Notes under the pieces: model-generated | What the model saw: the letters and a program-made list of their open reading frames with translations, nothing else | Told to the model about the DNA's origin: nothing | Database searches by the model: none | Part shown: positions 21,297 to 29,283 of the stretch, one piece after another | Layout of the letters: every line of letters begins with the position of its first letter | Position numbering within the stretch: the stretch's first letter is position 1 | DNA from: Nitrosopumilales archaeon | GTDB taxonomy: Archaea > Thermoproteota > Nitrososphaeria > Nitrososphaerales > Nitrosopumilaceae | Direction of reading: 5' to 3' | Assembly (NCBI GenBank): GCA_016838825.1 | Contig: JAEHKU010000008.1 | Span: 1-33,495 of the forward strand | Length of the DNA stretch: 33,495 bases | Translations under genes and position numbers: made by a program

Positions 21297-22451
21297 ATGG
21301 AAAAAGTTTGTGTTATAGGTGCTGGCAGTACAAAATATGGAAAATTAGAAGATAGTATTGCAGATCTTGCTATTCAGGCATCTGTAGGAGCAATTGACGA
21401 TGCAGGAATAGAACCAAAAGAAATCAAGGCTGGTTACATCTCAAATGTATTTGGTGTTGCCGACAAACAAGTTCACATAGGACCGGTCATAATGAGTAAT
21501 TTAGGCATACCAGAAGTTCCATCTTTGTCAATAGAATCTGCTTGTGGTAGTGGTTCTGTTGCATTTAGAGAAGCATATGCAAATGTTGCAGCTGGATTTT
21601 ACGATGCAGTTTTAGTTACTGGTGTTGAAAAAGTAAATCATAAGGGTACAGAATGGAATACAACTTACTTTTCATATTGTTCTGATTTTTTTTATGAAGG
21701 AGGATCTGGCGCATCGTTTCCTGGACTTTTTGCGTCAATGGCACGAGCTTATCTTGCTGAATTCAAAGCAACTGAAGAAGATCTAGCTCTAGTTGCTGTC
21801 AAAAACCATGATAATGGCCTACTAAATCCTAAAGCACATCTACAAAGAAAAATTTCTGTAGAGGATGTAATGAATTCTCCAGTTGTTGCGAGTCCGTTAA
21901 AGTTGTATGATTGTTGTCCTTTTTCGGATGGAGCAAGTTCAGTAATTATTTGCAGTGAAAATTTTGCAAAAGATCATACTAAAGATTACATTGATGTTAT
22001 TGGCTCAGGTAGGGGTGGTTCCCCTGCTGCACTGCAAGGCCGTGATCATCTGACAACGATACCAAGCACAAAGATTGCAGCAGAGGCTGCATACAAAATG
22101 GCTAACATAACACCAAAAGATGTGGATTTTGCGGAAGTACACGATTGTTTTACTATTGCAGAAATCATAGACTCGGAAGATTTAGGATTTTTTGAAAAAG
22201 GGAAAGGAGTGGATGGTGTACGTGAAGGTTTAACAAAAAGAAATGGTGACATACCAATTAATCCATCAGGCGGCTTAAAGTCTAAAGGACACCCTATAGG
22301 TGCAACAGGTGTAGGTCAGGTAGTAGAGACCTTTGAACAGCTTATGGGAAAAGCTGGAGAAAGAACTGTTAAAGACGCCAATATTGGTCTGACACATAAT
22401 TTTGGAGCAACTGGTGCAAGTTGCGCTGTTCATATCTTCAGAAGAGCATAA
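21297..22451 (+). CDS. Acetyl-CoA acetyltransferase (archaeal thiolase)
   Basis: The 384-residue protein is a thiolase of the archaeal/SCP-x-like type. Catalytic residues visible are C83 in ESACGSGS, H282 in EVHDCFTIAE, H332 in KGHPIGATGVG and C376 in GASCAVHI. It would interconvert acetyl-CoA and acetoacetyl-CoA. In thaumarchaea this serves the last step of the 3-hydroxypropionate/4-hydroxybutyrate CO2-fixation cycle and the first step of the mevalonate pathway; which applies here is inference. A DUF35 gene follows after 5 bases, as in characterised archaeal thiolase/HMG-CoA synthase complexes, though no HMG-CoA synthase gene is in this window. Confidence 0.93.
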   Translation: MEKVCVIGAGSTKYGKLEDSIADLAIQASVGAIDDAGIEPKEIKAGYISNVFGVADKQVHIGPVIMSNLGIPEVPSLSIESACGSGSVAFREAYANVAAGFYDAVLVTGVEKVNHKGTEWNTTYFSYCSDFFYEGGSGASFPGLFASMARAYLAEFKATEEDLALVAVKNHDNGLLNPKAHLQRKISVEDVMNSPVVASPLKLYDCCPFSDGASSVIICSENFAKDHTKDYIDVIGSGRGGSPAALQGRDHLTTIPSTKIAAEAAYKMANITPKDVDFAEVHDCFTIAEIIDSEDLGFFEKGKGVDGVREGLTKRNGDIPINPSGGLKSKGHPIGATGVGQVVETFEQLMGKAGERTVKDANIGLTHNFGATGASCAVHIFRRA

Positions 22452-22456
22452 TCAAA

Positions 22457-22822
22457 TTGTCAGCCAAGCAGGAATTCATAAACACCGCGAAATCAGGCAA
22501 AGTTCTCGCACGTAAATGCACCAAATGTGGTTTCTTACATCTAGTTACAGTCTATTTTTGTCAAAATTGTGGGAACAAAGGATTTGATGATTTTACGATT
22601 GAAGGGAAGGGTTCCATCGTAACATATACCATAATTACCGTACCTCCAACAGGATGGGAAAAATATACCCCTTATGCATGGGTCGTAATGAAACTTGATG
22701 AAGCAGATTTACGTGTTTCTGGATTTATGGAAAAGATTGCATTACCTACTGATCTTCCAATAGGTACAAGTGCGAAAGTCGCTGGATATGATGAACGTGG
22801 ATTAATAATAGAAAAACTGTGA
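22457..22822 (+). CDS. DUF35 OB-fold protein with zinc ribbon, thiolase partner
   Basis: With the TTG at 22457 as start, the product has 121 residues: a rubredoxin-like zinc ribbon (C21, C24, C35, C38; CTKCG...CQNCG) and an OB fold (about 45-121). In archaea this family is a scaffold that bridges acetoacetyl-CoA thiolase and HMG-CoA synthase and forms a shared CoA site. The frame extends upstream into the thiolase gene, but the TTG 5 bases after the thiolase stop gives the normal family length. Tight linkage indicates one operon. Confidence 0.88.
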   Translation: MSAKQEFINTAKSGKVLARKCTKCGFLHLVTVYFCQNCGNKGFDDFTIEGKGSIVTYTIITVPPTGWEKYTPYAWVVMKLDEADLRVSGFMEKIALPTDLPIGTSAKVAGYDERGLIIEKL

Positions 22823-22893: not shown

Positions 22894-23052
22894 TTGGTAG
22901 ATATTGTTTGCAGTAAATGTGGCACCAAAATAGTTAATATGAAAATGTTAAAGCCTGTAAAGGACGTGATGAAATCTTATAACAACAAGTGTCCGTCATG
23001 TGGACAGACTCTTTCTACATCTGAATTTACACTTGATATTCAGAAAAACTGA
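22894..23052 (+). CDS. 52-residue zinc-ribbon protein
   Basis: A frame from TTG 22894 to TGA 23050-23052 encodes a protein with two CxxC knuckles, CSKCG (residues 6-10) and CPSCGQ (about 33-38), separated by a Lys/Met-rich loop. This is a classic small archaeal zinc ribbon of unknown role; it might bind nucleic acid or another protein. A TATA box at leaderless distance and paired cysteines make the gene credible despite the TTG start. It lies between the thiolase operon and the regulator gene, and I cannot assign it to either. Confidence 0.7.
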   Translation: MVDIVCSKCGTKIVNMKMLKPVKDVMKSYNNKCPSCGQTLSTSEFTLDIQKN

Positions 23053-23156
23053 CGGCAGCTTTTCTAAATGGATCAAAATAATACAAAACTGATCAAATTT
23101 TATCATTAAATGTCTAGTCATAAATTTTAAGTACCCATCATCATTTAGATTTGGAT

Positions 23157-25253
23157 ATGGAACGAGGCGAGGAAGTACTAGCGGAGCCTTTACGCGGAAA
23201 TATTTTACAATCTACATCAAGGCGTGTAAGAATGATCTTTTCTGTTATGGCAAGTCCAAATAGAATAGATATACTACGTATTTTGAATTCAAAAGGACCT
23301 TTAACCTATTCAGAATTAAAGTCCTTAGCGGGTTTTAAGTCAAAAAAAGAGAGTGGAAAATTCGCATATCATCTAAGAAAACTACTAAGGCAGTCTCTGG
23401 TAGCACTAAACAAGTCTGAAAGGAGGTATACGATCACAAATCTAGGAAAACTTGTTCTAAGTCTTGCAAGGCAGATCGAAGAGAGATCTATAATTGAAAG
23501 TGGAAAGATGTATGTGCGAACCTCACATGAATCAATTGAGGAGTTTAACTCTCAAAAAATAATTCAATCCCTTGTCCGAGAGGGTAGTCTTCCATTAGAA
23601 CTTGCCCAAAAGATTACCGAGGAAGTAGAAAATCGCATATACAAGTACCAAACCACTTATCTGACCGGATCTTTGATACGCGAAATGGTCAATTCTGTCC
23701 TATTAGAACATGGCCATGAGGAATATAGGCATAAATTGGCCAGACTTGGCCTCCCTGTCTACGATGTTCACGAGATGATTACGAACGTCGATATGACTGA
23801 TAGTGGTGTAGAAGGAATTCTAACCAAGGCGGGTCAGACCATAATTGGCGAGCACCTTGTTTTAAATACTCTCCCGAAAGATATAGCAGATTTCTATCTT
23901 TCAGGTGATATTCACATAACAAATCCGGGAACATGGTCTCTTTTGGTCGATACGATGTTTGTAGACCTGAAAGAGCTGATTGAAGATGGAGTAAATTTAC
24001 GTGGAAAGTTATTAGGAATAACAAGAATATCTTCTGTAAAGACCCTGGATAATCTTACTTCCGCGATATCATTGATAACATCTTTGCTATCAAAAGAGGC
24101 CTCCCAAGAGGTAATTATTGATGGGTTAGTACCACTTTTACAAAAATATTCAAAAAATCTGTCAGATTTAGAAGAAAAACTGGTCAATGCTTTCGGAACT
24201 GCTATCATATCAAGGCACGGTAAAAGCTCCACTTTAGTTTCATTCAGAATTCCTATTGCAAGTGATCAAAAAACAGTAAAAGCTGTTCTTTCAGCGTACA
24301 AAAAATATACCAAATCAACACCTATCCCACAAATTGGACTTGTAATTGACTATGAAAAGGGCAAAGTCAGTGATTTCTCTGAGATCCTTTCAGAAATAAT
24401 TGCGCTGGGAGGAGTAATCATCTTTTCCAAGGGAATTAGATCTAATAATGGATTACGTCGTTCTGAGAAAGAGGCTACTAGTTCCTCCTCAATAAAATTA
24501 CAGTCACTATCAATAAATCTTCCAAGACTAGCATTTGAGTCAAACAAGGATGAGACATACTTTAGAGCACGACTAGCACTTTTGATGAAACCAGCACTGG
24601 CTGCTATGTCCCTTAGAAGAAAAGACGTATCTGATCTCACTAGACGTGGATTGAGTCCAATTCTTGCCGGCAATACTCAGTTTATGCAAAAAAAATCTAT
24701 TGCACTTGTTGTTAATCTTGTAGGATTAAAGGAAGCGGTATATGCCATTCTTGGACATAAAGAAAATAAGGAAGGAAAGGAGATTCTCTTCAAAGTATTA
24801 GAGACAGCTGTAGAGGTCGCAGCTAAAAAGGGAAAGGAGCTTGGAGATCCTGTTACAATAACTATGATAGAAAGTGATGCTACATCAAGATTTGCCTCTT
24901 TGGATGGTGAAAAATATGGCAAAATGTCTGTCCTTCGGTCTATCAAAGGTGAATCTTACTCACAAGGATTAGTATTTGATGCCCATGAGATCGAAGAAAT
25001 GAATTCTAAAAGTGAAAAGATTGTTGAATGCAACAAGATGACTAAGATATTAAATGGTGGACTTTTGGTTCAACTAAAGATGCCAGATGGATCAAATCCC
25101 TTACAAATAAAGAATACTATAGAAAAGGCTTCTGATATTTTCGACTCCTTTAAACCAATTAAAAAAATTTCTATTTGTGGTAACTGTGGGCTAAAGGATG
25201 AAAAACTCCAAGAAAAGTGCCCATCCTGTAAATCTCCTTACATAATAACCTAG
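23157..25253 (+). CDS. Winged-helix/ATP-cone protein with inactive class III ribonucleotide reductase-like body
   Basis: The 698-residue product (ATG 23157; a TTG at 23151 would add two residues) has, in order, an ArsR-like winged helix (about 18-108; SPNRIDILRILNSKGPLTYSE), an ATP-cone (about 115-205; VRTSHESIEEFNSQKIIQSL to the DVHEMI segment), a long region resembling anaerobic reductase NrdD (about 210-660; NTLPKDIADFYLSGDIHITNPG) and a C-terminal C4 zinc ribbon like that of NrdD (ICGNCG...CPSCK). The catalytic cysteines expected in the body are missing: only one other cysteine exists. The glycyl-radical loop that should follow the zinc ribbon is absent too, so it cannot be a reductase. 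It sits 230 bases upstream of nrdJ. I infer a nucleotide-sensing transcription regulator. A TATA-like ATTTTAAG near 23124-23131 fits the ATG. Confidence 0.85.
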   Translation: MERGEEVLAEPLRGNILQSTSRRVRMIFSVMASPNRIDILRILNSKGPLTYSELKSLAGFKSKKESGKFAYHLRKLLRQSLVALNKSERRYTITNLGKLVLSLARQIEERSIIESGKMYVRTSHESIEEFNSQKIIQSLVREGSLPLELAQKITEEVENRIYKYQTTYLTGSLIREMVNSVLLEHGHEEYRHKLARLGLPVYDVHEMITNVDMTDSGVEGILTKAGQTIIGEHLVLNTLPKDIADFYLSGDIHITNPGTWSLLVDTMFVDLKELIEDGVNLRGKLLGITRISSVKTLDNLTSAISLITSLLSKEASQEVIIDGLVPLLQKYSKNLSDLEEKLVNAFGTAIISRHGKSSTLVSFRIPIASDQKTVKAVLSAYKKYTKSTPIPQIGLVIDYEKGKVSDFSEILSEIIALGGVIIFSKGIRSNNGLRRSEKEATSSSSIKLQSLSINLPRLAFESNKDETYFRARLALLMKPALAAMSLRRKDVSDLTRRGLSPILAGNTQFMQKKSIALVVNLVGLKEAVYAILGHKENKEGKEILFKVLETAVEVAAKKGKELGDPVTITMIESDATSRFASLDGEKYGKMSVLRSIKGESYSQGLVFDAHEIEEMNSKSEKIVECNKMTKILNGGLLVQLKMPDGSNPLQIKNTIEKASDIFDSFKPIKKISICGNCGLKDEKLQEKCPSCKSPYIIT

Positions 25254-25310
25254 TTTCGTTATTAATTTACGATTTCCATCAATTAAAATAATAAAATTAA
25301 TAATACAAAA

Positions 25311-25321
25311 ATTTTATTTTT
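25311..25321 (+). terminator. T-rich tract after the regulator gene
   Basis: ATTTTATTTTT lies 58 bases after the regulator's stop and could end its transcript by the archaeal oligo-T mechanism. The surrounding DNA is generally AT-rich, so the call is weak. Confidence 0.3.
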
Positions 25322-25353
25322 CTGTAGTTAGTAAGCTTGTTATTTAATTTTTA

Positions 25354-25384
25354 TTGATAATGAAACAACTAATGTTGATAATGA
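25354..25384. promoter_or_regulatory. Two 10-base direct repeats 21 bases apart upstream of nrdJ
   Basis: TTGATAATGA occurs at 25354-25363 and again at 25375-25384. Start-to-start distance is 21 bases, two turns of B-DNA, so both copies face the same side of the helix. A related 8-mer, CTAATGTT, overlaps the second copy (25369-25376) and recurs 42 bases later (25411-25418), again a multiple of 21. They stand about 100-130 bases before nrdJ and upstream of its likely TATA element (CTTTATTAT, 25442-25450). They are candidate binding sites for the adjacent winged-helix/ATP-cone protein; that is inference. The rest of this 230-base gap is AT-rich without a credible gene. Confidence 0.5.
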
Positions 25385-25471
25385 TCTAGTCAACCAAATT
25401 GAATCGAAGTCTAATGTTAGAGAATTTTTTTTCATCTGAAACTTTATTATCCTAATGCATCTTACAATTTT

Positions 25472-25480
25472 GGGGAGAGG
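25472..25480 (+). promoter_or_regulatory. Ribosome-binding site of nrdJ
   Basis: GGGGAGAGG ends 3 bases before the ATG at 25484. A clear purine-rich site like this is uncommon among the first genes of transcripts here, most of which look leaderless, and it settles the nrdJ start. Confidence 0.55.
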
Positions 25481-25483
25481 CAT

Positions 25484-28138
25484 ATGAGCGATTTTTCACA
25501 AATAGAGAGTTCTATCATTGATGTTAGAAAGCGTGATGGAAGGATCACAAATTTTAAAAAAGATAAAATTTCAAATGCTGTATTTAAGGCATTAGAGGCA
25601 ACTGGCAAAATTGATCGTGAAATTGCTGATGAATTAGCTAGCGCTGTAGTTTCTAAGCTCGTGGAACAAGGATTTTCGGCATCAAATCCACCAAGTGTAG
25701 AAGATATCCAAGATATGGTTGAATCAACTCTCATAGACAAGGGATATGGTGACATAGCTAAAGCATACATCCTGTATAGACACGAACGAAGAAAGCTACG
25801 TGATGCAAAAATGAAGGTTCTTAATACAAAGTCGCTTGATGACGTAGCAAAAAAATTTGATCTGAATAGCCTTAGGATTTTGGCCTCAAGATACTTGATG
25901 CGTGATTCCAAAGGTTCGATTATTGAAAGCCCAAGTGAAATGTTCGAGAGAGTAGCAATTTTGGTGGCCCTTGCTGATCTTCTAAGAGATAATACTGTTT
26001 TTGAACGAGATGGCCATATTTCACAAGACATAGAAGAGGCTAGGAAATATTTTGATAAACTAGATGATTTTAATTACAAGTTCAAAATAGGCAGTTACTA
26101 TCTCAATAAGTGGCATTTTAGATCACTCATTAACCAATACCTTAATCTTGCAAATCAAGGCCAGATGAAGGTAGGCTTTAAGCAATTTCTAACTATGCTA
26201 GCAGCAAAGGAATTCGATGGTTATGCAGAAAGAATCTCAGAATATCTTAATTTAATGACCTCGCAAGACTTTCTTCCTAACTCTCCTACTATGATGAATG
26301 CTGGTGGAAGATTAGGCCAACTTTCTGCATGTTTTGTACTTGATATGCCTGACGATATGGGGAGCATAATGAAGTCATCCTCTGATGCAGCCTTGATTTT
26401 CAAGTCAGGAGGTGGAGTTGGAATAAACTATTCTACTTTAAGACCGGAAGGAGAAATGGTTGGCTCCACGTCAGGAGTAGCATCAGGCCCTGTTTCATTT
26501 ATGAACATAATAAACACTGTAACCGAGGTTGTCAAACAAGGAGGTAAACGTAGAGGAGCAAATATGGGAATAATGGAAGTATGGCACCCTGACATAGAGA
26601 AATTTATCACAGCAAAGACAGAACCAGGAGTGCTAGAAAACTTTAACGTAAGTGTAGGTATTTGGGAAGATTTCTGGAACCATCTAGTTAATTCAGAAGA
26701 TGGAAAATACATCTTACGTGATCCACGTGACAGATCTGCTAGACGTGAAGTAAGTGCACACCAGTTAATTGATCTAATTGCTCTTTCTGCTTGGAAAAGT
26801 GCGGAGCCTGGTCTAATCTTCTTTGATCTTATCAACAAATACAATGTGTTTGCAAAAGCACGTGGCGAACCTTTACGTGCTACAAATCCTTGTGGAGAAC
26901 AGAGTCTATACCCATATGAATCGTGTAATCTTGGTTCAATTAATCTTGCAAATCTTGTTAAAAGACAAGCTGATGGACAATACGAATTTGATTGGCAAAG
27001 ATATGAGGAAGTAATTCGAAAGACCACAAGATTTTTGGATGATATCATAGATATGAACACTTATCCAATTTCTGAGATAGACAAAGCTTCTAGAGATTCA
27101 CGTAGAATAGGACTTGGAGTTATGGGCGTAGCTGATTTACTCTACAAACTTAGAATTCCATACAATTCAAAAGAAGGATATGAATTTCAATCCAAGCTAG
27201 CAGAAGCACTGACGTATTACTCTATGGAAGAAAGCACTGCTCTGGCAAAAACTAGAGGTGAATTTCCACTAAATCCTAAGACAGAATATCCAGAGAAAAA
27301 GATTCCTATAGCTGGATATTATGAAACACCAAAGGACGAACACTACTACGATTGGGATGCATTAATCTCAAAGATCCAAAAATACGGCATTAGAAATGTA
27401 CTAACGACTACTATTGCTCCAACAGGAACTCTTTCTATGATTGCTGATTGTTCAAACGGAATGGAACCAACGTTTGCACTTGTTTTTGAAAAGAGAGTAA
27501 CAGTTGGTAGATTCTTCTATACTAACAAAATATTTGAATCCGTTTTGAAAGAATATGGTTTGTATAATGATGAGATTCTAAGAAAGATTGCTGATAACTA
27601 TGGCTCACTAAAAGGCATGCCAGAAATTCCAGAGTGGATGCAGAAGATATTTGTCACTGCTATGGATATCCATTGGTCTGATCATCTGATGGCGCAAGCT
27701 GTATGGCAGAAATGGATTGGAAATGCAATAGCAAAAACAATCAACATGCCGCATGACGTGACACCTGATGATGTAAAAGCATCATATCTATTAGCACATG
27801 AACTTGGTCTCAAAGGAATTACTGTATACAGAGATGGTTCGCGTCATAAACAAGTTTTGCATATGATAAGTGAGAATGCAGAAAAAACTTTCCAGGTAAC
27901 TCCTAACACATTTGTAACTGATTACATTACTAAGAATATTACAAACTCATACGTAATGAGTCAAATTAAGAATGCATTAAGATTGAAAATTCCAGAAATA
28001 ATACAAACACAAGGTCAAGCACCAACAGAAAAGGAATTAGAAGAGAGACTGTGTCCTAGCTGTAAAAGTGACTTAGTCTTTGCAGAAGGTTGCAGTACTT
28101 GTATAGAATGTGGGTATAGCGGTTGTACTGGCGCTTAG
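25484..28138 (+). CDS. nrdJ: Cobalamin-dependent (class II) ribonucleotide reductase
   Basis: NrdJ reduces ribonucleotides to deoxyribonucleotides using adenosylcobalamin. The 884-residue product begins with an ATP-cone (about 12-105), the allosteric site for overall activity. The catalytic barrel has the N468-C470-E472 triad (NPCGE; C470 is the thiyl-radical residue), with redox partner C283 in LSACFVLD and C481 eleven residues after C470, as in Thermotoga NrdJ. GGVGINYSTLRPEGEMVGST is the glycine-rich effector/substrate region, and PTGTLSMIADCSNGMEP is characteristic. The C-terminal CPSCKSDLVF...CSTCIECGYSGC tail carries redox or zinc cysteines. Oxygen-independent, B12-based dNTP synthesis fits cobalamin-producing ammonia oxidizers. 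A putative regulator lies just upstream. Confidence 0.97.
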   Translation: MSDFSQIESSIIDVRKRDGRITNFKKDKISNAVFKALEATGKIDREIADELASAVVSKLVEQGFSASNPPSVEDIQDMVESTLIDKGYGDIAKAYILYRHERRKLRDAKMKVLNTKSLDDVAKKFDLNSLRILASRYLMRDSKGSIIESPSEMFERVAILVALADLLRDNTVFERDGHISQDIEEARKYFDKLDDFNYKFKIGSYYLNKWHFRSLINQYLNLANQGQMKVGFKQFLTMLAAKEFDGYAERISEYLNLMTSQDFLPNSPTMMNAGGRLGQLSACFVLDMPDDMGSIMKSSSDAALIFKSGGGVGINYSTLRPEGEMVGSTSGVASGPVSFMNIINTVTEVVKQGGKRRGANMGIMEVWHPDIEKFITAKTEPGVLENFNVSVGIWEDFWNHLVNSEDGKYILRDPRDRSARREVSAHQLIDLIALSAWKSAEPGLIFFDLINKYNVFAKARGEPLRATNPCGEQSLYPYESCNLGSINLANLVKRQADGQYEFDWQRYEEVIRKTTRFLDDIIDMNTYPISEIDKASRDSRRIGLGVMGVADLLYKLRIPYNSKEGYEFQSKLAEALTYYSMEESTALAKTRGEFPLNPKTEYPEKKIPIAGYYETPKDEHYYDWDALISKIQKYGIRNVLTTTIAPTGTLSMIADCSNGMEPTFALVFEKRVTVGRFFYTNKIFESVLKEYGLYNDEILRKIADNYGSLKGMPEIPEWMQKIFVTAMDIHWSDHLMAQAVWQKWIGNAIAKTINMPHDVTPDDVKASYLLAHELGLKGITVYRDGSRHKQVLHMISENAEKTFQVTPNTFVTDYITKNITNSYVMSQIKNALRLKIPEIIQTQGQAPTEKELEERLCPSCKSDLVFAEGCSTCIECGYSGCTGA

Positions 28139-28170: not shown

Positions 28171-29283
28171 GTGCAAATCCTATTGAATGCTAGAATAGTA
28201 AGTGGTGTAATTGCAGCAGGCGTGATTGCAGTAATCATTGTAGCATTTTTTTCACAAGATAGTTTGCAACCTCAACCAACTATACAACACGATGAAAAAC
28301 TTGGTCTTGTTGTACTTAGTCCAACTAAAATAACAACACTTCCCGAGCTAAAGCAAGCGTATGAACAAGCAGCGTCTACAGGAATTGGCAGAAGCAATGT
28401 CTATCTTTTCTGGAATTTATTGGAACCCGAACAAGGTCAATACAATTGGGAACATTCTGATGTTTTAATGAGTATGAATAAACAAAACGACCTCAAAGTC
28501 ACGTTATTCTTTTCAATAATAAATAGTAGAACGCTAGGACCATTTCCAGAATGGATAGGAAAATCTAGTTTTGATAATCTAGAAGAAAAAACAATCACTG
28601 TACTCGATAACATCCTGTCAAGGTACGACATTATAGATTACGTGATAATTGGCGGAGAAGTTGATGCATATTTTCGTGAAAACGAATATGATGTTCAAAA
28701 GTATAATAAATTTTTTACAAATGTATACGATGTTCTAAAGGAAAAATATAGTAATGTAAAATTTGGAAACTCATTTTCACTTCATGGTATAATACATAAC
28801 AGTCCAGAGGATTTGAGTACGACTCTTGATTTAGGAGATTTTGTAGGTTTTACATATTTTCCAGTCGATAGATTAAATGATATTGTTGATACACCTATTG
28901 ATGCTGCTAGAAATCTTGAAAAGATCATTGACCTAGCAGATGGAAAAAAAGTAGCTATTATGGAAATTAGTTGGAGTACGGCGGAATCAGTTGGTGGAAG
29001 CGAAGAAGGACAGGTAGAATTTATGAAATTAGCATACGATTTCTATAGGGATAATGAATCTGATTTTGAATTCTTTACTTGGTTTAGACAATATGACAGA
29101 CCTGAGGGAAGCTGTATTGATGATCTAAACAAAGAACTAGGTCAAGTCACCTTGGGAGGAAATGAGTTTGTATTACAACGCGTTGCAGATTACATATGTA
29201 ACTCAGGATTAATTGATACTGATGGAAACCCAAAGGTTGGTTGGGAAGAAATGAAAAAACAAATACAGTTTGGTTCTTCATAA
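28171..29283 (+). CDS. Membrane-anchored or secreted glycosidase-like TIM-barrel protein
   Basis: The 370-residue product has an N-terminal hydrophobic segment (about 8-27) and a barrel-like domain. FWNLLEPEQGQYNWE resembles the start of clan GH-A glycosidases such as GH42 and GH53. Candidate acid/base E163 in IIGGEVDAYF and nucleophile E275 in AIMEISWST are 112 residues apart, as expected for the ends of strands 4 and 7. The usual NE pair before the acid/base is GE here, so the activity is uncertain. The start is GTG 28171; a TTG at 28183 is also possible. It follows nrdJ after 32 bases but with no functional link that I can see. It is convergent with the tRNA gene. Confidence 0.75.
   Translation: MQILLNARIVSGVIAAGVIAVIIVAFFSQDSLQPQPTIQHDEKLGLVVLSPTKITTLPELKQAYEQAASTGIGRSNVYLFWNLLEPEQGQYNWEHSDVLMSMNKQNDLKVTLFFSIINSRTLGPFPEWIGKSSFDNLEEKTITVLDNILSRYDIIDYVIIGGEVDAYFRENEYDVQKYNKFFTNVYDVLKEKYSNVKFGNSFSLHGIIHNSPEDLSTTLDLGDFVGFTYFPVDRLNDIVDTPIDAARNLEKIIDLADGKKVAIMEISWSTAESVGGSEEGQVEFMKLAYDFYRDNESDFEFFTWFRQYDRPEGSCIDDLNKELGQVTLGGNEFVLQRVADYICNSGLIDTDGNPKVGWEEMKKQIQFGSS

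Follow-up and report, generated by a model that had tools for sequence, protein, structure and literature searches.

The window analyzed here is a stretch of 33,495 nucleotides (positions 1 to 33,495, forward strand, of contig JAEHKU010000008.1, assembly GCA_016838825.1) from a Nitrosopumilales archaeon of the family Nitrosopumilaceae. It carries a gene for a degenerate relative of the class III anaerobic ribonucleotide reductases (NrdD), hereafter the pseudo-reductase, followed after 230 bp and on the same strand by nrdJ, which encodes a complete class II reductase (NrdJ_Z, with 738 bits for a cut-off of 400). The features of this locus are listed in Table 1. Just upstream of the pseudo-reductase, across the window's family and also in locus L111, lies a short gene whose 52-aa product has two CxxC pairs (LVDIVCSKCGTKI...NNKCPSCGQTL) and is probably a zinc-ribbon protein (22894-23053, + strand). 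It is preceded by a thiolase-like gene and a ChsH2-type OB-fold/zinc-ribbon gene (21297-22822, +), a pair also found upstream of this locus in the order genomes of L048-L050, L052 and L053. After nrdJ, a gene at 28171-29283 (+) has a likely N-terminal membrane segment and weak similarity, below cut-off, to GH35/GH42 glycosyl hydrolase barrels.

Table 1. Features of the pseudo-reductase and nrdJ locus, in window positions.
Feature	Position	Strand	Remarks
GTCAtAA..TTAA block beside the presumed TATA region of the pseudo-reductase's own promoter	23116..23133	+	Conserved; putative role
Winged-helix/ATP-cone/dead NrdD/zinc-ribbon protein (pseudo-reductase)	23157..25253	+	698 aa from ATG; alternative TTG start at 23151
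Winged helix, DNA-binding (DUF7347/HTH_20)	23223..23459	+	Pfam; family mean identity 99.9%
ATP-cone	23508..23726	+	V120, E128, F130 and K134 retained; equivalents of NrdR K50/R51 are T122/S123
Degenerate NrdD barrel body without catalytic cysteines	23799..25160	+	Pfam, Foldseek, alignment, cysteine count
NrdD-type zinc ribbon, C674-x2-C677...C688-x2-C691	25176..25229	+	Protein ends just after; no glycyl-radical loop
nrdJ upstream footprint, imperfect dyad GTCAA-N5-TTGAA, core GTCAACCAAATTGAA	25389..25403	+	Conserved; candidate regulator site
Candidate nrdJ TATA-like element CTTTATTA	25442..25449	+	Putative role, from alignment
nrdJ, adenosylcobalamin-dependent class II reductase with its own ATP-cone	25484..28138	+	Pfam, NCBIfam

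The N-terminus of the pseudo-reductase matches the Pfam families DUF7347 and HTH_20 (E 2e-10 and 4e-8), and is followed by an ATP-cone (PF03477, E 8e-9) and by an NRDD match covering residues 430-695 (PF13597, E 1e-25). The NCBIfam NrdD profile also recognizes the protein at an E-value of 6e-23, yet with 81 bits, far below its cut-off of 326. There are five cysteines in all, C625 and the zinc set C674/C677/C688/C691. Alignment with three active NrdDs shows that the protein has neither the RPFC cysteine nor those of the CC finger loop, and that it stops at the zinc ribbon, with no glycyl-radical loop. A Foldseek search with the low-confidence full-length model returned class III reductases for all of hits 1-31 in the PDB (E 8e-12 to 8e-7), the NrdD fold being kept over ~500 residues. 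The AlphaFold model of the full protein is poor (mean pLDDT 52.7, with parts of 290-660 at ~70-85), as is that of the winged helix and cone (mean 59.3), because the alignment was restricted to close relatives. The domain make-up proposed by the sequence-only reading (winged helix, ATP-cone, NrdD body and zinc ribbon) is thus borne out by Pfam and by the cysteine positions, the resemblance to NrdD extends beyond the ATP-cone in the low-confidence model, and the catalytic residues reported as missing are also lost in every orthologue aligned.

A protein search across 398 genomes of the phylum retrieved relatives of the pseudo-reductase in 293 of them, with a match in all 63 genomes listed for the window's family and in 11/11 from three other families of the order; the named loci with close relatives belong to marine group I/Nitrosopelagicus ammonia oxidizers. 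All members of the order lack the glycyl loop altogether, together with the radical cysteine and the reducing cysteine, and they form a single, fully supported clade that is nested among the outside relatives and lies apart from active NrdDs. Outside the order, the relatives are ~540-790 aa long and combine an NrdD body with the winged helix and the ATP-cone. They have likewise lost the RPFC cysteine, and their glycyl loop is decayed or absent, the RVTGYY of active enzymes reading RVSAKHL, RSSATYI, KTENIFA and others. Therefore, the pseudo-enzyme predates the ammonia oxidizers. The proposal that the degeneration is special to the window's lineage must be abandoned, since many families of the phylum have such NrdD pseudo-enzymes with a winged helix, some of them encoded beside an active nrdD. 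The protein has also been shortened in places: two families outside the order retain 540-625 aa, and the marine, Nitrosopelagicus-type members L037-L046 end before the zinc ribbon, with an almost unchanged winged helix. In L055 (6002-8127, genome G311) the pseudo-reductase is split into two frames beside an intact nrdJ, possibly by sequencing error or decay. Overall, an enzyme has likely become the regulator of its own functional replacement, with the intermediates preserved as a decayed loop beside an active nrdD and a lost loop beside nrdJ.

The linkage to nrdJ, put forward from the window, holds across the order: nrdJ is the next gene downstream, on the same strand, in 70/70 loci having enough downstream sequence (46 from the window's family, the window included, and 24 from other families; L040, L054 and L128, cut by contig ends, are not counted). 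The adjacent nrdJ genes are not one orthologous set. They form deep groups with pairwise identities down to 25-35%, and the ATP-cone is present in some of their products and absent from others. In quick trees, with a long-branch warning on that of NrdJ, the pseudo-reductase of L115 groups with those of L121/L124/L125/L130 (99 in the quick tree) and its NrdJ groups with that of L116 on a very long branch (100 in the quick tree), a supported conflict between the two trees. The existence of several deep NrdJ groups shows that the reductase was swapped while the pseudo-reductase stayed. Among relatives from outside the order, the adjoining reductase is encoded by an active nrdD in families f27 (6 loci), f37 (4) and f57 (1), sometimes with a glutaredoxin-like gene in between, and by an nrdJ in f18 (1 locus). 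Two pseudo-reductases from genus g51 are 95% identical, and their neighboring nrdD genes are 27% identical. These varied neighbors indicate that the pseudo-reductase follows the reductase function of the locus and not one particular enzyme.

Several families outside the order have no adjoining reductase and often present pyrB/pyrI or an argF-like gene as neighbors, which counts against a role in reductase regulation. As pyrB also flanks the reductase in many loci of the order, the position beside it looks ancestral. At these reductase-free loci, the pseudo-reductase may regulate pyrimidine genes, or the arrangement may reflect old synteny. In L058, L059, L061, L062, L065, L168, L169, L174-L176 and L179, all without an adjoining reductase, the pseudo-reductase is convergent with pyrB, with pyrI nearby; in f12/f17 an argF/pyrB-like gene is close by.

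Sequence constraint is distributed unevenly along the protein. Within the window's family, pairwise identity averages 99.9% in the winged helix, 91% in the ATP-cone and 57-68% in the body; over the whole order, these values are 85%, 74% and 36-48%. Such a ranking would be expected if the protein bound DNA and were switched through its cone. Several groups have lost the zinc ribbon, and this partial loss, together with the fast drift of the body, makes the body look scaffold-like and less a well-kept sensor. Hence, the suggestion that the allosteric and substrate pockets of an ancient reductase became a sensor module survives in part: the winged helix and ATP-cone are kept, but the body that would hold these pockets drifts fastest.

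A palindrome, GTYAA-N6-TTRAC, was first spotted by eye upstream of the genes of relatives. It was followed by a pattern-free scan of all five-base half-sites with spacers of 2-9 (8131 patterns) in 330 kb from 26 loci of the order, 25 of them from outside the window's family. The top pattern was GTCAA-N6-TTGAC, with 18 of its 28 occurrences within the 5.3% of sequence that lies upstream of the pseudo-reductase or nrdJ (p 7e-17, an optimistic value, since related loci are not independent); the next-best patterns were T-runs at 1e-10, and spacers of 4, 5 and 7 gave no excess comparable to N6 in these upstream regions. Perfect GTYAAN6TTRAC sites occur nine times in the 330 kb, always upstream of the pseudo-reductase (6) or nrdJ (3). 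With one mismatch allowed, a site precedes the pseudo-reductase in 14/26 cases and nrdJ in 10/25, against 12/149 control regions taken from before other genes of these loci, some of these 12 being the same sites assigned to a divergent neighbor. A genome-wide count of the exact 16-mer in five genomes from the f68 family gives seven occurrences, six of them at this locus. Relative to the start codon of the pseudo-reductase, several sites are placed ~47-58 bp upstream, immediately before a TATA-like element. The palindrome scan yielded nothing comparable outside the order, where A/T runs and weak signals were all that emerged.

The window's family has a 5-bp spacer, versus 6 bp elsewhere in much of the order. 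The conserved block upstream of nrdJ reads GTAnCGKTGTnAA-N5-TTGA, and a leave-one-genus-out test recovered this footprint at its expected position in 16/17 loci. An unbiased scan within this family, in which coding conservation close to the edges of the zones is a confounder, placed GTCAA-N5 eighth (p 5e-8), and the promoter of the pseudo-reductase itself shows no clear palindrome site there. As the winged helix is invariant, the N5 spacer and the lack of a site in the own promoter mean that the nrdJ site may belong to another factor; these two departures are the main weakness of the operator case. Regarding a wider regulon, GGTGTNAAN5TTGA gave few matches in each of 31 whole genomes, with no clear excess over the reversed-pattern control.

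The bacterial-type regulator NrdR contacts nucleotides through V48, K50, R51, E56 and K62 (PMC9110341). The equivalent residues of the pseudo-reductase are V120, T122, S123, E128 and K134, so that the adenine-side and outer-site residues are kept and the phosphate-contact K-R pair is replaced. The identical V-R-T-S motif is found in an active NrdD, that of L064; therefore, this type of cone need not be dead. In Foldseek, the model of the cone resembles the cones of NrdR and of reductases, with weak E-values. From these residues, nucleotide sensing by the cone is plausible.

No genome of the order has a protein above the TIGR00244 cut-off for canonical NrdR, and true NrdRs above this cut-off are present in 35/398 genomes of the phylum, all outside the order. 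The supposed absence of NrdR from the lineage is therefore right for the order and wrong for the phylum. The true NrdRs of f5 and of one f37 genome (L068, L069 and L070) are encoded beside an ATP-cone reductase gene, and the f5 genomes bearing them also have the winged-helix pseudo-reductase elsewhere in the genome. Active NrdD is above cut-off in 1/101 genomes of the order; this sole case (G408:C30:1-1407) is a contig-end fragment from an incomplete genome and perhaps a contaminant. The pseudo-reductase does not have TIGR00244 among its NCBIfam matches and lacks the N-terminal zinc ribbon, and is therefore not an NrdR. Nevertheless, the pseudo-reductase and NrdR, the reductase repressor of bacteria and a few archaea, both couple an ATP-cone to a DNA-binding domain and are both encoded near reductase genes of any class. 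The palindromic boxes of NrdR stand before reductase genes and often before its own gene; for the pseudo-reductase, candidate sites precede the reductase gene and, in many relatives, its own gene. They differ in that NrdR binds DNA through an N-terminal zinc ribbon, whereas the pseudo-reductase has an N-terminal winged helix and a C-terminal zinc ribbon, a cone in the middle of a protein of ~700 aa, a dead NrdD body and a different palindrome. The pseudo-reductase probably works like NrdR, as its archaeal counterpart. The analogy drawn by the sequence-only reading is thus supported in part: the fold beyond the ATP-cone, the loss of catalytic residues, the linkage to nrdJ, the lack of NrdR in the order and a candidate operator common to both upstream regions agree with it, but the body does not look like a well-kept sensor.

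With NrdD itself the pseudo-reductase shares the ATP-cone, the barrel fold, the C-terminal zinc ribbon and ancestry, but it lacks the catalytic cysteines and glycyl-radical loop and has gained a winged helix. That domain is common to archaeal regulators of the ArsR/DUF7347 type; in the pseudo-reductase, however, the remainder is a reductase remnant with an ATP-cone instead of a metal-sensing site. The reuse of an enzyme fold as the sensor of a transcription factor is already known from the MocR/GntR regulators, which combine a winged helix with an aminotransferase fold, and the pseudo-reductase is thus not categorically new, although MocR derives from an unrelated enzyme and family and retains its cofactor site. 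Our searches of the openly accessible literature returned no description of the pseudo-reductase.

These observations suggest a mechanism in which the pseudo-reductase forms a homodimer or higher oligomer through its dead barrel, placing two winged helices on a palindrome before nrdJ and, in many relatives, also before its own gene. Judging from the sequences, the target would be GTYAA-N6-TTRAC in much of the order and, for nrdJ in the window's family, the variant GTNAA-N5-TTNA. Binding of ATP/dATP to the cone probably determines the state of assembly, by analogy with NrdR, in which DNA binding and repression depend on dATP/ATP. The dead NrdD body is probably a dimerization scaffold and may still read dNTPs at the specificity site. 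At its own gene, autorepression at high dATP would be the most likely outcome, given how closely several sites precede the TATA region. The nrdJ footprint of the window's family is located ~50 bp upstream of the TATA-like element, where activators are more usual than repressors, and activation is therefore possible at this gene.

Other interpretations account for part of these data. Since the NrdD fold persists over ~500 residues, the protein could be a catalytically altered yet active enzyme whose winged-helix fusion is incidental; given that all members of the order lack the glycine loop and both the radical and the reducing cysteine, and that the body is the fastest-changing part, we consider this highly improbable. 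Pseudo-enzymes frequently regulate active paralogues, and the protein could instead be a pseudo-subunit that inhibits or activates NrdJ by direct contact, with the help of its ATP-cone, the winged helix being protein-binding or of minor importance. Such contact would fit a linkage that holds whichever reductase is present, as well as the several adjacent NrdJs without an ATP-cone of their own. However, no other part is conserved nearly as strongly as the winged helix (99.9% in the family), which points to DNA, palindromes are common to the upstream regions, and partners as different as class II groups and class III enzymes would be hard to accommodate at a protein interface and easy at a promoter, so that this interpretation seems rather unlikely.

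A more serious competitor, though still one that we regard as doubtful, accepts DNA binding at the locus but holds that the body and cone no longer bind nucleotides, the protein responding to another signal or acting as a constitutive, autoregulated factor. The replacement of NrdR K50/R51 by T122/S123, the drift of the body (36-48% across the order), its shrinkage in some families and the loss of the ribbon in several groups agree with this idea. Against it, the ATP-cone ranks second in conservation (91% and 74%), E128, F130 and K134 are kept, and the V-R-T-S motif of the active L064 NrdD suggests that a cone of this type may still bind. Taken together, these data make it likely that the pseudo-reductase, derived from an old duplicate of a class III reductase, is dedicated to regulating the transcription of the ribonucleotide reductase that the cell uses. 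With somewhat less confidence, we favor the broader view that this ancient duplicate gave rise to widespread archaeal winged-helix factors that sense nucleotides and control whichever class II or class III reductase adjoins them, as an independently evolved analogue of NrdR.

To our knowledge, gene-level control of dNTP supply is undescribed for most archaea. Ammonia-oxidizing archaea are among the most abundant marine microbes. NrdR is reported to be rare in archaea (PMC9110341). The pseudo-reductase provides a candidate reductase regulator throughout the ammonia-oxidizing archaea, together with a probable binding site, which turns the control of their ribonucleotide reductase into a directly testable question.
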